Of a DNA stretch of 64,000 nt, positions 10,961 to 60,675 are shown one piece after another. The stretch's first letter is position 1, and each line of letters starts with the position of its first letter. The DNA comes from Desulfurococcaceae archaeon (GTDB taxonomy: Archaea; Thermoproteota; Thermoprotei_A; Sulfolobales; Ignisphaeraceae). The position numbers were made by a program, and so were the translations under genes. The notes beneath the pieces were generated by a model. That model saw only the letters and a list, made by a program, of their open reading frames with translations, was not told the DNA's origin and did no database searches. Location of the stretch: NCBI GenBank assembly GCA_020832925.1, contig JAJHRF010000001.1, forward strand, positions 62,001-126,000, read 5' to 3'.

Positions 10961-12562
10961 GTGGAGTCAAAAATGGCTGTAACGATTTTAGAGAAGTTCA
11001 AAAGTATAAGTCCTGCTGAATTCTTCTACCGTAACAAAGAGATAGCTGGTTTCTCGAACCCTGCTAGAGCTTTATACCAGTCGGTAAGAGAGCTTGTAGA
11101 GAACGCTTTTGACGCAACTGATGGTCACGGTATCTTGCCGAATATAGAGATATCTATTGATAGACATCCTGAGAAACTCAATGTCTACAGAATTACAGTG
11201 AAAGATAATGGTATAGGTATTCCCGGGGAGTATATACCTGAAGCCTTCGGTAAAGTCTTGTTTAGCTCTAAGTATGTTCTAAGACAGTCTAGAGGTCTCT
11301 TCGGTTTAGGAGCTAAAATGGTTGTTCTATACGGTCAAATTACGGTAGGAGAACCTGCTGAAATAATATCTGCCACCATTGGCTCGAAGAAGGTGTACAT
11401 GTATAGAATAGCTATAGATATCAAGGAGAATAAACCTATAATTCTACACAAGGCTTTCTGGATCAATACCACTAATTGGCATGGGACGATAGTTAGGGTT
11501 TCTATAGAAGGTGATTGGGGTAGAGCGAAACAGAAGATTCTAGACTATGTGAGGAGAACCGCTATAGTAACTCCTTACGCTAACATAGTATTCAAAACAC
11601 CTGATGGAGATGTATATGTATACCCTAGTGTTACAAACAAAGTCCCACCACCACCGAAAGAAACAAAGCCCCATCCACATGGAGTAGATATAGAGATGTT
11701 GAAGGCTATGATAAGCGAGACCAAGGCTGAGACACTTCTAGATTTCTTAGCTTCGGAATTCCAAGGGGTAGGAGAAGTTACGGCTCAGAGATTCCTCCAG
11801 ACATATGGTTTCGATCCTAGTAAGAAAGTTAAAGAGCTTACAGCTGAAGAGATTGAAAAGTTCGTGAAATGCTTAAAGGAGTACAACGAGTTTAAGAAGC
11901 CTAGAGCAGACCATCTATCACCTATAGGTGCTGAACTAATAAAGATAGGTCTTAAACAGATACTGAAACCAGAATTTGTTGAAGCTGTAACTTGTAAACC
12001 TGTTGTATACGAAGGGCACGCGCTTATAGTTGAGGTAGGGATAGGTTACGGAGGATCTATACCTCCTTCAGACCAGCCTATAATCCTTAGATACGCTAAC
12101 AAGATACCTCTGTTATACGATGAGAAAAGCGATGTATCTTGGAAAGTTGTGTCCGAGAACATAGACTGGAAATACTACGAGATAGAGTTCCCAGCACCGA
12201 TAGCTATTCTTGTCCATGTATGTGGAACTAAGATACCGTATAAAGGTGTTGGTAAAGAGAGTATCGCAGATGTACCTGTTATAGAGAAGGAGATAGAGGA
12301 GGGGATAAGGTACGTCGCCAGAGCTTTGAAACAGTACCTCTTAAAGAAGCAGAGAGAGGAAGAGGCTCTGAGGAAGGCTTACACAATAATAAAGTATATA
12401 CCGGAGATAGCTTCAGCATTATCTATTTTCGCCTCAGCAAACCCTGAGAAAATAGATCAGAAGATATTTGAAGCTAAATTATTCGAAATGGTTAAGTCTA
12501 AGTATGGGGAAGTTCTTAAGAACATTTCTTCGGTAAGAGATGTAGTGATACAGAGTGAGTAA
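10961..12562 (+). CDS. top6B: DNA topoisomerase VI subunit B
   Basis: A 533-aa ATPase subunit of the type IIB topoisomerase, which relaxes and decatenates DNA. The GHKL (Bergerat) motifs are clear: RELVENAFDATD, DNGIGIPGEYIPEAFG and SRGLFGLGAKM. The H2TH region follows (FQGVGEVTAQRFLQTYGF), then the transducer domain. The start is GTG 10961; ATG 10973 (MAVTILEKF) is equally plausible and has gtgga just upstream. The end overlaps top6A by 8 bases. Confidence 0.96.
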   Translation: MESKMAVTILEKFKSISPAEFFYRNKEIAGFSNPARALYQSVRELVENAFDATDGHGILPNIEISIDRHPEKLNVYRITVKDNGIGIPGEYIPEAFGKVLFSSKYVLRQSRGLFGLGAKMVVLYGQITVGEPAEIISATIGSKKVYMYRIAIDIKENKPIILHKAFWINTTNWHGTIVRVSIEGDWGRAKQKILDYVRRTAIVTPYANIVFKTPDGDVYVYPSVTNKVPPPPKETKPHPHGVDIEMLKAMISETKAETLLDFLASEFQGVGEVTAQRFLQTYGFDPSKKVKELTAEEIEKFVKCLKEYNEFKKPRADHLSPIGAELIKIGLKQILKPEFVEAVTCKPVVYEGHALIVEVGIGYGGSIPPSDQPIILRYANKIPLLYDEKSDVSWKVVSENIDWKYYEIEFPAPIAILVHVCGTKIPYKGVGKESIADVPVIEKEIEEGIRYVARALKQYLLKKQREEEALRKAYTIIKYIPEIASALSIFASANPEKIDQKIFEAKLFEMVKSKYGEVLKNISSVRDVVIQSE

Positions 12563-13745
12563 CAAGGTTGAAGCTATGTCTATGTCGCATCTATATACAT
12601 CTAAAGTAGATCAAAAAATTAGAATAGCTATCACCGAGAAGTTGAGGTATAGATTTCTAGAGCTAGCTAAAGCTGTTCTTAGTGGAGAAGAGCCTAAGAT
12701 GATTATACCTAAGAGAACACTATCCAATACTGTATACGATAAAGAGAGGAAACTATTGTTACTAGGATCTGAAACTTTTGAGAGGAGATTTCTGGATGTT
12801 AGAGAAGTTAGGAAGTTTATGCAGACATTACTCATGGCTAAGATTATATACGAAGCTCTGAAAAATAACGAGTACCCAACAATAAGAGATCTCTACTACA
12901 GAGGTAAGCATACAATACGGTACAGATCTTTCAAAAAGTCTATAGAAGAGGAGAATACATGGGATGAGCAGAAAGAGAGTGACGCAGTTCTGAGAGATAT
13001 AGAGGTGTATGTAGGACTTCTTAGAGAAGATATGCTTATACTTAGCAAAGAGAAGGGTAAGGTTGTAGGAGATCTGAGGATAAGATCTGGAGACGATGTT
13101 ATAGACTTGAGTAAGATGGGTCACGGAGCTTACGCTATAGAACCTACACCAGATCTAATAGAGTTTCTCGATGTAAATGCTGAACTCGTATTGGTTGTAG
13201 AGAAAGACGCTGTTTTCCAGCAACTCCATAGAGCAGGGTTCTGGAAAAAGTATAGAGCTATTCTAGTTACAAGCGCAGGTCAACCTGATAGAGCTACGAG
13301 GAGATTCGTAAGAAGGTTAAACGAAGAGTTGAAGCTTCCTGTATACATATTAACAGATGCAGATCCATACGGATGGTATATATACAGCGTCTTCAAGATA
13401 GGCTCTATAACACTATCATATGAATCTGAGAGATTAGCAACACCTAACGCTAAATTCCTAGGGGTAAGTATGACGGATATCTTTGGGGATAAGAATAAGA
13501 AACCATACCTTAGCGAAGAAGAGAGGAGGAACTTCATAATCAAAGCAAAGAAAGCAGATATAAAAAGAGCTCAAGAACTTCTAAACTACGAATGGTTTAA
13601 AACAGAGAAATGGATGAAAGAGATAAACATATTCCTTGAGAAACAAAGTAAACTCGAAATAGAAGCTTTAACAGGTAAAGGACTCTACTTCCTAATGGAT
13701 ACATACATACCTACAAAGATACAGACAGGAGACTTCATAGACTAG
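12555..13745 (+). CDS. top6A: DNA topoisomerase VI subunit A (Spo11-like)
   Basis: A 396-aa DNA-cleaving subunit, homologous to Spo11. The catalytic tyrosine lies in TIRDLYYRGKHTIRY. The Toprim domain provides VVEKDAVF and ILTDADPYGWYIYSV for metal binding. GTG start within the end of top6B, so translation is coupled and the two subunits are made together to form the A2B2 enzyme. The gene is followed directly by the tRNA cluster. Confidence 0.96.
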   Translation: MSNKVEAMSMSHLYTSKVDQKIRIAITEKLRYRFLELAKAVLSGEEPKMIIPKRTLSNTVYDKERKLLLLGSETFERRFLDVREVRKFMQTLLMAKIIYEALKNNEYPTIRDLYYRGKHTIRYRSFKKSIEEENTWDEQKESDAVLRDIEVYVGLLREDMLILSKEKGKVVGDLRIRSGDDVIDLSKMGHGAYAIEPTPDLIEFLDVNAELVLVVEKDAVFQQLHRAGFWKKYRAILVTSAGQPDRATRRFVRRLNEELKLPVYILTDADPYGWYIYSVFKIGSITLSYESERLATPNAKFLGVSMTDIFGDKNKKPYLSEEERRNFIIKAKKADIKRAQELLNYEWFKTEKWMKEINIFLEKQSKLEIEALTGKGLYFLMDTYIPTKIQTGDFID

Positions 13746-13822: not shown

Positions 13823-13915
13823 GCCGCCGTAGCTCAGCTGGGAGAGCGCCCGGCTGAAGAAACCAAAACTTCAGGCACCGGGCGGTCGGGGGTTCAAGTC
13901 CCCCCGGCGGCACCA
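13823..13915 (+). tRNA. tRNA-Phe (anticodon GAA) with a 17-nt intron, CCA encoded
   Basis: The acceptor stem is GCCGCCG/CGGCGGC with A73 and an encoded CCA at 13913-13915. The anticodon stem CCCGG/CCGGG encloses 24 nt instead of 7. Removing 13860-13876 leaves CTGAAGA, anticodon GAA at 13856-13858. A TATA-like aactttaaatc lies about 35 bases upstream. It is the first of three tRNA genes on this strand. Confidence 0.93.
13860..13876 (+). other. tRNA-Phe intron (canonical position 37/38)
   Basis: A 17-nt intron with the bulge-helix-bulge core: 4-bp helix CTGA/TCAG flanked by 3-nt bulges AGA and GCA, cut AG|A and GC|A. The inner helix is nearly absent, so this is a relaxed (bulge-helix-loop) substrate. 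Confidence 0.8.
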
Positions 13916-13927
13916 AAACACCTAGAT

Positions 13928-14032
13928 GCCGGGGTGGCCGAGAGGTCCAAGGCGGCGGGCTGCAGTGGTTTCCGGCTCCGCCCACCGTAGAGACCCGTTA
14001 ACTCCCGGGTTCGAATCCCGGCCCCGGCTCCA
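13928..14032 (+). tRNA. tRNA-Cys (anticodon GCA) with a 27-nt intron, CCA encoded
   Basis: The acceptor stem is GCCGGGG/CCCCGGC with discriminator T (U73, as expected for Cys) and CCA at 14030-14032. The T arm is CCGGG-TTCGAAT-CCCGG. The anticodon stem GCGGG/CCCGT encloses an interrupted loop. Removing 13966-13992 leaves CTGCAGA, anticodon GCA at 13962-13964. The long inserted sequence mimics a type II variable arm at first sight, but the real variable region is only about 6 nt, which excludes Ser and Leu. Confidence 0.92.
13966..13992 (+). other. tRNA-Cys intron (canonical position 37/38)
   Basis: A 27-nt intron. The bulge-helix-bulge is good: central helix CTGC/GTAG with one G-U pair, bulges AGT and AGA, and an inner helix starting GGT/ACC. 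It is a standard substrate for the archaeal splicing endonuclease. Confidence 0.8.
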
Positions 14033-14110
14033 ACATTACTATAAACATAACCTCATCAGCTAATATGCATATAAACTTAAATCCGTTGTTATTGTATCTC
14101 CATATCTATA

Positions 14111-14187
14111 GGGCCCGTCGTCTAGCCTGGTAGGACGCCGCCCTTACGAGGCGGAGGTCCGGGGTTCGAATCCCCGCGGGCCCACCA
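14111..14187 (+). tRNA. tRNA-Val (anticodon UAC), CCA encoded
   Basis: Cloverleaf of 74 nt plus encoded CCA at 14185-14187. The anticodon loop CTTACGA gives UAC for GUA codons. There is no intron. A TATA-like catataaact lies about 40 bases upstream. The body is identical to tRNA-Val(CAC) at 2161-2234 except for base 34. Confidence 0.96.
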
Positions 14188-14211: not shown

Positions 14212-14268
14212 AGATGATGAGCAACGCAGGCCTAGGAGAATAAATGATGGGACCCCTTTGTCTGATAA
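14212..14268 (+). ncRNA. Candidate C/D box sRNA with both guides matching tRNA-Leu
   Basis: About 57 nt starting 25 bases after tRNA-Val. Box C is ATGATGA (14214-14220), C' is ATGATGG (14244-14250), D is CTGA (14262-14265), and D' is a degenerate GAGA (14236-14239). The C-to-D distance (41 nt) is normal for archaeal sRNAs. The D guide gacccctttg (14251-14260) is complementary to 56020-56029 in tRNA-Leu(UAG). The D' guide acgcaggccta (14224-14234) is complementary to 56050-56060 in the same tRNA. Both duplexes leave position -1 unpaired. The RNA may be processed from a tRNA-Val transcript. It is not confirmed by expression data. Confidence 0.65.
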
Positions 14269-14289: not shown

Positions 14290-15459
14290 CTAATCTATTC
14301 TCGGTAACATTGTTAACTCTAAAACTTGTAGATAGGTATTGCTTAATGCGAACACTGTTACAATTGTTGAGATAGGTTTGCTATACTTTGTCGATGGAAA
14401 TCTCAGCACCGTTCTCGTTATATTGTATGGGTAGAACTCTACTGTATATACTCTCCAACCCATATAGTATGCGTAAAACCTTACACTTCTACCGTTAACA
14501 ATCCATGTACCTGCAATTCTTGTTGAAGCTGAGATAGATCCGTGCAATTGGTACCATATAGTCGTATTCTCTTTACCGATTTCAGCACAAGATAGATTAG
14601 ATACAACGATATATGTACGCCCTATCAATGGGTCTGCATAACCCATATAAAACATGTTTACGTAGAACCAACCTTTTGTAGTTATTCCAAGGTCTATACA
14701 TATATCTAGTAGGTAAACAGCTTGGCTAGCTACATCAATGCCTAAGGTATTATCATCTCCATCTACAAGGTTGTAGGGGTATACAATGTAATCTCCTTTA
14801 TATAGTACTGAGATATACCTACCTTCGTCAGGATCGCTAGGTCTGTACTGTACATAGATCCTCTCTCCACTAAAGGTGTGGAGAACTTCATCTTCCCATG
14901 TGGCTATAGCTACATTATTCTCTGGAATAGCGTAGATATAGAAATATGTTTCAGGAGCTACAACCCTCTTAACCCTGTATACCAGGTGATTCCACGAATT
15001 ATTGTCGTAGTATGTAGGGGGAACTCTTTCATAGCTCCAAAAACCTCTATACATAGAGATTGTGTTGTTGAAACCTTGATTACTAGAGCTACAGAAAACA
15101 TTATTGTTAACAGTTTCTACACATACCCTACCTATATCTAAACCATTAAAATCCGTAGATATACCGATACCTCTTCCAGATCTAACAACAACATCAACAT
15201 CTCTAACAACGAGAGTCCTATTCTTCAACTCTATATATATCAAATCAACTTTAACATCTCTAGAACCTTTATTAACCAAGGTAACAACATTGCTATCAAC
15301 ATTAACATCTAGATACTCCTTAGCTTTCTCAATACTCTCAACAGCATCTCTAGCCACACTATATATAGTGTTCAACCAATCTGTAGCTACATAGATTACT
15401 ATAAGCAGTACAGAGATTAAAACAACAGTACCTATATACTCACTTTGACCACGGATCAT
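14290..15459 (-). CDS. Prepilin-like secreted or membrane-anchored protein
   Basis: A 389-aa protein. It begins MIRGQSEYIGTVVLISVLLIVIY..., where the short basic leader RGQS followed by a hydrophobic helix resembles a class III (type IV prepilin) signal, although only one membrane helix is present. The remaining ~350 residues are predicted extracellular and beta-rich, with asparagines in possible N-glycosylation sites. I do not recognise the ectodomain. It overlaps the stop of the upstream pilin-like gene by 20 bases, so both form one operon divergent from the S-layer gene. A role in pili or surface adhesion is an inference. Confidence 0.6.
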   Translation of the reverse strand: MIRGQSEYIGTVVLISVLLIVIYVATDWLNTIYSVARDAVESIEKAKEYLDVNVDSNVVTLVNKGSRDVKVDLIYIELKNRTLVVRDVDVVVRSGRGIGISTDFNGLDIGRVCVETVNNNVFCSSSNQGFNNTISMYRGFWSYERVPPTYYDNNSWNHLVYRVKRVVAPETYFYIYAIPENNVAIATWEDEVLHTFSGERIYVQYRPSDPDEGRYISVLYKGDYIVYPYNLVDGDDNTLGIDVASQAVYLLDICIDLGITTKGWFYVNMFYMGYADPLIGRTYIVVSNLSCAEIGKENTTIWYQLHGSISASTRIAGTWIVNGRSVRFYAYYMGWRVYTVEFYPYNITRTVLRFPSTKYSKPISTIVTVFALSNTYLQVLELTMLPRID

Positions 15460-15880
15460 ATACCCTCACCTCGAAAACCATCAACACATCTCCATCGCTT
15501 CTAAAAACTTTGAGAGGTAGATCGCGAAGTAAAGCAATACAACTTCTATCGATAAACATGTAATCTACGTAATCCCTGTAAACAACAGTTAAATTCGTTT
15601 TCAAGCCTGTTCTGAAAACACATAGATACTTAACATCGTTGAAATTGCTGTAGTTAGATCTACAGAGAGTTACATTATGTTGAAAAACAATCTCTAAGCT
15701 AGAGATGTTATAGCATACGGTATACCCATAGATATAGCTTTGTCTAGGTCTATATATAGGGTATAAACTAGTTGAATATGTATAGATATAGATAGCTACA
15801 GCAGTCGATATAGCTAATAACACTGTAAACGCGATGAAACTCGATACACCTCTAAAGATATGTATAGCATGGAACTTCAC
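15440..15880 (-). CDS. Small prepilin-like protein
   Basis: About 146 aa from GTG 15880 (VKFHAIHIFRGVSSFIAF); longer starts up to 15919 would add 13 residues. RGVS just before a hydrophobic helix (SFIAFTVLLAISTAVAIYIY) is a likely prepilin peptidase site. The rest is a short ectodomain with two or more cysteines. It overlaps the following pilin-like gene. The pattern of a short and a long pilin-like gene suggests a minor pilin and an adhesin, but no pilus ATPase or platform gene is in the window. Confidence 0.55.
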   Translation of the reverse strand: MKFHAIHIFRGVSSFIAFTVLLAISTAVAIYIYTYSTSLYPIYRPRQSYIYGYTVCYNISSLEIVFQHNVTLCRSNYSNFNDVKYLCVFRTGLKTNLTVVYRDYVDYMFIDRSCIALLRDLPLKVFRSDGDVLMVFEVRVYDPWSK

Positions 15881-15943
15881 AGACCCCACACAAAACTCAG
15901 TAGCTAAAAAATGTTCCAAAGATTTTCAAAAATTCGAGAAGTG

Positions 15944-55998: not shown

Positions 55999-56086
55999 GC
56001 GGGGGTGCCCGAGCCAGGTCAAAGGGGTCGGGCTTAGGACCCGATGGCGTAGGCCTGCGTGGGTTCAAATCCCACCCCCCGCACCA
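55999..56086 (+). tRNA. tRNA-Leu (anticodon UAG), CCA encoded
   Basis: Acceptor stem GCGGGGG/CCCCCGC with A73, CCA at 56084-56086, and a long variable arm (ATGGCGTAGGCCTGCGT region). The anticodon stem TCGGG/CCCGA encloses CTTAGGA, anticodon UAG. No intron. Two stretches, 56020-56029 and 56050-56060, are complementary to the guides of the C/D sRNA candidate at 14212. A TATA-like gaatataaacc lies about 50 bases upstream. Confidence 0.96.
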
Positions 56087-59973: not shown

Positions 59974-60675
59974 TTACTTGTCCCTACTTTTTAAGCTGTT
60001 AACAAGATTCTGAGGTATTTCAAAGAAATGTTTAGAAACTTCTATTATATAGCTAATCGATGGAAGGATGTTAGGTATGCCGAAGTCTATCGCTATAGTG
60101 TTCTTAGCTATGTTTATATCGATTTTAGTCTTTATTTCGTTATCAGCTAGTTTTTTACCTACTTCATAAGCTATCACAAACTTAGCAAACCTTCTAACAG
60201 TTTCCTCCATAGGCTTAAAGACATTGTATACCTTCCTCATGAGTTGCACAAATGTCTGTTTATCCATAAACTCGAAGTAGTACATGGTGAACAGAAACCT
60301 CAATATTCTAGCAACTAGTTTATCGTCTACAGATTTGCATAACTCTGGATCACGGCTACAAAACTCATCATAATTAGAAACACTTTTAAGAATTTCTAAG
60401 ATTTTCTCTATCTTTATCTCTACATCAAATAATTTCTCTAAAACATCTTTACTTAGTTCTTTATCTAATCCCAACCCCCACTTAGCTATAATGTAGAGAG
60501 AAGCCATATCTTTATCATAGAGATCTGGAGAAGAACTTGATCCTCTTATAGGTTCAACTCCTATCTCTTTATAACACATTTGTAGAATTTTCGTAGCTTC
60601 TTCACGCGATGTAATGTTTTCTCGGATTATTCTACTCCACGCGTTCACAAGCGCTATGATCCTTTTCCTCTTCAT
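59974..60675 (-). CDS. Conserved crenarchaeal helical protein, possibly DUF2192
   Basis: A 233-aa protein from ATG 60675 (GTG 60693 would add 6 residues). It is almost entirely alpha-helical, beginning MKRKRIIALVNAWSRIIRE, with ATKILQMCYKEIGVEPIRG and MASLYIIAKWGLGLDKELS. No catalytic motif is visible. I recall a crenarchaeal family (DUF2192) with such an N-terminus, but this is a weak memory. Divergent from the radical SAM gene. Confidence 0.5.
   Translation of the reverse strand: MKRKRIIALVNAWSRIIRENITSREEATKILQMCYKEIGVEPIRGSSSSPDLYDKDMASLYIIAKWGLGLDKELSKDVLEKLFDVEIKIEKILEILKSVSNYDEFCSRDPELCKSVDDKLVARILRFLFTMYYFEFMDKQTFVQLMRKVYNVFKPMEETVRRFAKFVIAYEVGKKLADNEIKTKIDINIAKNTIAIDFGIPNILPSISYIIEVSKHFFEIPQNLVNSLKSRDK

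Follow-up and report, generated by a model that had tools for sequence, protein, structure and literature searches.

A conserved box C/D sRNA of Ignisphaera with two guides predicted to target the leucine tRNAs

The sRNA locus and its surroundings

The window, that is the whole 64,000-nucleotide stretch of DNA analysed here, sits in a 1.88-Mb archaeal assembly (G000; genus Ignisphaera, Thermoproteota) and contains a box C/D sRNA flanked by a tRNA-Val(UAC) gene and by a convergent reading frame that ends at 14290. The features of the locus and of its predicted target in the window are collected in Table 1.

Table 1. Positions in the window of the sRNA, its neighbouring tRNA gene and its predicted tRNA target
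Feature	Position	Strand	Sequence	Remarks
tRNA-Val(UAC)	14111..14187	+		ARAGORN and Rfam; box C lies 26 nt downstream; probable co-transcription partner
Box C/D sRNA	14212..14268	+		Approximate mature body, ends inferred; boxes, spacing and orthologues in 13 other family genomes
Box C	14214-14220	+	AUGAUGA (ATGATGA in DNA)	From sequence; 98% mean pairwise identity, 14 species
D' guide	14224..14234	+	ACGCAGGCCUA	N+5 nucleotide C14231; 11/11 to all five tRNA-Leu; 93% identity
D' box	14236..14239	+	GAGA	Degenerate; GA kept
Box C'	14244-14250	+	AUGAUGG (ATGATGG in DNA)	From sequence
D guide	14251..14260	+	GACCCCUUUG	N+5 nucleotide U14257; 88% identity between species
Box D	14262-14265	+	CUGA (CTGA in DNA)	Invariant across 14 species
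tRNA-Leu(UAG)	55999..56086	+		Predicted target; four more tRNA-Leu elsewhere in the genome are also predicted targets
D-guide target	56020..56029	+		3' end of the D-loop, 3' strand of the D-stem and positions 26-28; predicted 2'-O-methyl A22 at 56023
D'-guide target	56050..56060	+		Runs from the variable arm into the T-stem; G at 56053 predicted to be 2'-O-methylated

The element, which runs from box C through box D at 14214-14265, has the layout of an archaeal box C/D sRNA. Boxes C and D agree with RUGAUGA and CUGA, and the internal C'/D' motif, defined by a k-loop with GA/AG pairs, combines an AUGAUGG box C' with a degenerate GAGA box D'. Boxes C, C' and D, which an earlier note on this DNA had described as clear, are thus all present. 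The normal spacing claimed in the same note holds for the C'-D spacer, whose 11 nt fit the archaeal guide length of about 10-12 nt, but not for the C-D' spacer, which at 15 nt is long against that range and of which 11 nt form the complementary part. The host genome also encodes fibrillarin (E 1e-104).

A loose C/D pattern (ATGATGA-N9-34-TGATGR-N8-14-CTGA) matched the 64-kb window once, at the sRNA locus, compared with an average of 0.00 matches over 100 shuffled sequences. Matches to several bacteria in a genome-wide pattern scan were set aside as chance matches of a loose pattern. A pattern search returned 10 canonical sRNAs, all with a C-D' spacer of 12 nt, but the length limit of that pattern excludes 15-nt spacers, and these sRNAs were therefore not used as proof of a universal 12-nt spacing. 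Rfam gave no hit, hence none above gathering score, at the sRNA locus, and folding of the naked strand was uninformative (z = 1.1), as expected of C/D sRNAs. Folding revealed no clear terminal stem in this copy, which would suit a non-functional remnant or a box-like sequence that is not a gene; this explanation is extremely improbable given that boxes C and D and the guides are 88-100% identical between species while the flanks are near random.

Directly 5' of the sRNA lies a tRNA cluster (13823-14187) composed of tRNA-Phe and tRNA-Cys, each with introns, and tRNA-Val; tRNA-Phe and tRNA-Cys were missed by ARAGORN run on the whole window and were found by Rfam. The gap between tRNA-Val and the sRNA is about 10-26 nt in this genome and in G007 and G008, and tRNA-Ala(GGC) lies downstream of the sRNA in eight congeners, G007 and G008 among them. 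Because there is little room for a promoter behind tRNA-Val, the sRNA is probably cut from a tRNA-Val(UAC) co-transcript, and cleavage at the tRNA 3' end would expose the sRNA 5' end. Dicistrons of a tRNA and a C/D sRNA have precedents, and in one of them, from N. equitans, the tRNA is tRNA-Val (described in PMC7994747).

Several other features of the window were recorded. Two reading frames occupy the minus strand at 14290-15919, one of which, of 389 aa, begins MIRGQSEYIGTVVLISVLLIVIY, resembles an archaeal pilin-type signal at its start and terminates, on the strand opposite the sRNA, 24 nt away from box D. Two adjoining reading frames at 10961-13745 are, from inspection by eye, what we take to be DNA topoisomerase VI subunits B and A. 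ARAGORN also called a tRNA-Asp with anticodon AUC at 60487-60572, which is probably false, because it lacks Rfam support and, to our knowledge, archaea have no A34 tRNAs.

Guide complementarity to leucine tRNAs

The D guide (GACCCCTTTG) and the D' guide (ACGCAGGCCTA) are exact reverse complements of 10 nt and 11 nt, respectively, of tRNA-Leu(UAG), as the earlier note had reported, so that each site shows at least 9 nt of complementarity to a stable RNA with the N+5 nucleotide included. Comparison of the guides with 42 of the 44 tRNA genes found in the genome, plus the tRNA-Leu(UAG) of the window, revealed that the 11-nt D' target is complete in all five tRNA-Leu (GAG, CAG, UAG, UAA and CAA). 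The D target matches at 10/10 positions in the GAG, CAG and UAG isoacceptors and at 9/10 in UAA and CAA, in which position 27 is G and the D guide of this genome forms 8 continuous pairs. Among the other tRNAs compared, none exceeded 8/10 (D) or 8/11 Watson-Crick pairs (D'), and tRNA-Ser was rejected as a second D-guide target, its 8/10 match having a mismatch inside the core. Since the guides match all five isoacceptors and no other tRNA, the sRNA would be a guide for the tRNA-Leu family and not for tRNA-Leu(UAG). The earlier note had named tRNA-Leu(UAG), which does match, and saw one isoacceptor because the window contains one only.

When both guides were shuffled with their composition preserved, 0.035% of trials produced a pair of matches, each of at least 9 nt, within one tRNA, and the observed combination of 10 and 11 nt is rarer still, bearing out the view that such a double match is unlikely by chance. 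This low rate weighs against the idea that the C/D sRNA acts on rRNA or some other RNA and matches tRNA-Leu fortuitously, an explanation that could draw on the GC-rich composition of tRNAs and on the estimate, in PMC4644070, that one in three archaeal C/D sRNAs lacks a match to rRNA. We give that explanation hardly any credence, because both guides are conserved together with their targets in 14 genomes and the rRNA matches are of 7-8 nt only.

rRNA was rejected as a target, as the best continuous pairing in the 16S-23S region of a congener (G002) was 8 nt for the D guide and 7 nt for the D' guide; an apparent 11-nt rRNA match proved to be a tRNA-Leu gene adjoining the operon. Covariance-model searches found no 16S or 23S rRNA in the assembly that holds the window, and the universal 16S motif was missing from G000, G009 and G005, possibly reflecting missing contigs, masking or rRNA introns.

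Conservation and guide-target co-variation

BLAST and a model made from the sequences of ten orthologues located the sRNA in every Ignisphaera genome sampled, 11 in number, and in three of the seven family genomes that belong to other genera; in one genome, G012, only the D' half was found. Weak model matches in families f2, f5 and f9 (L162-L165, L167, L170-L172) were rejected, most of them being a single half or coding-like. Across 14 species, mean pairwise identity was 0.98 for box C, 0.93 for the D' guide, 0.88 for the D guide and 1.00 for box D, compared with 0.35 and 0.32 for the 12-nt flanks, 0.36 for the first three spacer bases and 0.31 for the N+1 base of D'. The contrast between conserved boxes and guides and near-random flanks points to selection on the boxes and guides only. 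Conservation in close relatives had been proposed as a check on the candidate, and it came out in its favour, with boxes and guides kept in 11/11 Ignisphaera genomes, and in other genera too, amid randomised flanks.

The D' box was GAGA, UAGA, UGGA, AAGA, AUGA, CCGA or CAGA in ten aligned orthologues, with the GA invariant, and its register was ambiguous in G002, G007, G008 and G009. The GA of a D' box is the part that forms sheared pairs. The earlier note had called this box degenerate, and GAGA does depart from CUGA, but the degeneracy would be understandable given that GA is mostly kept and in a fixed register. The C-D' spacer was 15 nt in 13 of 14 species and 14 nt in the remaining one.

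The guides of each species were scored, free to take any placement, against the tRNA-Leu genes of the same genome. In 14/14 family genomes, the best placement put the N+5 nucleotide of the D guide on A22, the site assigned to it in the earlier note, and N+5 of the D' guide on one particular G of the variable arm, the same in each (nt 55 of tRNA-Leu, 56053 here); the N+5 positions were paired in every genome. The guides therefore remain complementary to each genome's own tRNA-Leu. Because tRNA-Leu is nearly invariant within the family, co-variation between guide and target is limited to a few events. In G007 and G008, guide and tRNA have both changed at the D' edge with pairing kept. In G009, the D' guide ends in U in place of A, and the partner base has changed from U to A in three of five tRNA-Leu, converting the last D' pair from A-U to U-A in these isoacceptors. 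The variable-loop base concerned is A in the CAA, GAG and UAA isoacceptors (L178, L176 and L177) and U in CAG and UAG (L140 and L117). As the G009 isoacceptors differ at this one base, one guide fits three of them better, which provides a natural test of guide strength. The G002 guides include G-U pairs and form a shorter D duplex.

A similar but diverged element was found in family f7, through model matches in six genomes (G033, G167, G168, G169, G178 and G182) and by direct reading in a further five (G023, G172, G173, G177 and G179); the loci are L158, L159, L160, L166, L168, L169 and L254-L258. In several genomes it adjoins tRNA-Thr(CGU). In the f7 element, a C-like box is followed by the slightly variable D' guide (A)CGCAGGCCUA and then, one base further on, by a D' box that is of the GA type in most copies; some copies carry a GC-rich hairpin between D' and C'. 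Its D guide differs from that of Ignisphaera. Pairing of this guide in G182 and G033 covers positions 23-34 of tRNA-Leu, with N+5 on G26, and at tRNA position 27, which is U in G182 and G in G033, the guide base is A and C, respectively, matching the tRNA. The remaining f7 genomes share a conserved D guide, GCCCGUCCACG, that pairs less well with tRNA-Leu. In G182 and G033, the D target would lie at G26 instead of A22; position 26 is one where thermophilic archaea are known to carry a ribose-methylated base, m2,2Gm26 (PMC7668247). An sRNA whose second target differs between families is useful for studying guide evolution.

Predicted methylation and relation to known guide RNAs

The boxes, pairing and conservation described above make this sRNA a conserved, well-supported member of a known guide-RNA class, unusual in its pair of targets and in its spacing. 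We consider it highly likely that the locus encodes a dual-guide box C/D sRNA specific for tRNA-Leu, its expression and the methylation being predictions from sequence, and very probably the sRNA directs chemical marking or folding of tRNA-Leu. In the proposed mechanism, L7Ae, Nop5 and fibrillarin would assemble on the C/D and C'/D' motifs, and the two guides would bind the tRNA-Leu precursor, one on each side of the anticodon arm. Pairing of the D guide with the 3' half of the D-arm would lead to 2'-O-methylation of A22, while pairing of the D' guide with the leucine-specific variable arm would methylate the loop-closing G of that arm, or at a minimum anchor the particle to leucine tRNAs. A single RNA could in this way serve all five isoacceptors.

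The two sites are predicted with different strength. Methylation of A22, which is predicted to lie opposite G13 at the edge of the D-stem, is the firmer prediction, because the spacing of the D guide is ordinary (11 nt), and we regard it as likely. The variable stem would most simply consist of nt 48-50 (GGC) paired with nt 55-57 (GCC) around a GUAG loop, which would pair the G at nt 55 with C50. The D' target nucleotide would then close the variable loop, and its placement at the base of the variable arm in the earlier note would be mistaken. Methylation of this G is less sure, with the balance tipping only slightly towards it, because the 15-nt C-D' spacer falls outside the usual 10-12 nt (PMC7994747) and spacing is reported to matter for activity; conserved spacing is required for efficient methylation according to the title of Tran et al. 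2005, as cited in PMC7994747.

The D' guide may be mainly an anchor. In one alternative, the D guide alone methylates, at A22, and the D' guide is a binding element that confers leucine specificity and keeps the tRNA in place. The 15-nt spacer constant across species, the off-consensus D' box and a D' target unique to tRNA-Leu would all fit such an arrangement, and Dennis et al. argue (PMC4644070) that both pairings form even when one site is unmethylatable. Nevertheless, most species and f7 keep the D' GA and the N+5 register on the same G, as expected if that G is methylated, and we view a purely anchoring D' guide as possible though on the doubtful side.

Because the two targets flank the anticodon arm and are 20 nt apart, the sRNA might in addition serve as a clamp or chaperone. 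A tentative joint reading is that the sRNA base-pairs with each leucine tRNA on either side of its anticodon arm, as a two-handed, tRNA-specific clamp, contributing to folding as well as methylation at high temperature, with the unusually long D' spacer fitted to the geometry of the tRNA; we hold this to be rather unlikely. We think it more improbable still that the sRNA is primarily a folding chaperone that clamps tRNA-Leu around the anticodon hairpin at high temperature, with methylation secondary, as the fixed N+5 placement favours guiding; a chaperone function has been suggested for double guides acting on rRNA (PMC7994747).

Dual guiding as such is familiar from archaeal rRNA: of 489 C/D sRNAs from archaea, roughly half are predicted to be rRNA double guides (Dennis et al. 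2015, PMC4644070). The present sRNA shares with these the C, D', C', D layout, the N+5 rule, the fibrillarin machinery and the use of two guides to nearby sites of one RNA, but here both targets are in tRNA-Leu and the C-D' spacer is 15 nt. Many archaeal C/D sRNAs without rRNA targets match tRNAs, according to the same paper, in which those data are uncompiled.

Among tRNA guides, the box C/D RNA in the tRNA-Trp intron, which directs Cm34 and Um39 (PMC7994747, PMC6313347), likewise uses its two guides on two sites of a single tRNA and is an exception to the single-guide use described for tRNAs. That RNA is an intron of its own target, whereas the sRNA described here is a separate trans gene matching five isoacceptors at other sites. 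The Pyrobaculum tRNA-targeting C/D sRNAs also act in trans, and a conserved site can serve several tRNAs, but they are said to pair with the tRNA through one guide, the second being without a target (Lui et al. 2018, via PMC7994747), in contrast to the two guides aimed at the same tRNA here. Single-guide use is the picture that PMC7994747, a review, gives of tRNA guides acting in trans.

Predicted C/D guides of P. furiosus target tRNA-Leu(UAA) at G47 and tRNA-Leu(CAA) at C34 (snoRNAdb, via PMC7668247), thus sharing tRNA-Leu targets, one of them in the variable region, although only one site per tRNA is listed, the lineage is distant and the likeness concerns the target sites; mass spectrometry as reported in PMC7668247 did not detect methylation of G47. 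In S. acidocaldarius, the observed modifications at G18 and U34 of tRNA-Gln(UUG) have predicted guides (PMC7668247), so that two sites of one tRNA are again assigned to the C/D machinery, in this case in a different tRNA and with a likeness that lies in the two sites. According to PMC7668247, several crenarchaeal tRNA methylations have no known guide or enzyme. A literature search of limited reach turned up neither an account of this RNA nor any dual guide for tRNA-Leu.

In sum, a dual guide that matches every leucine tRNA and persists throughout the genus, and in part across families, yields two exact predicted methylation sites, and this sRNA would be useful for studying tRNA stabilisation in hyperthermophiles.
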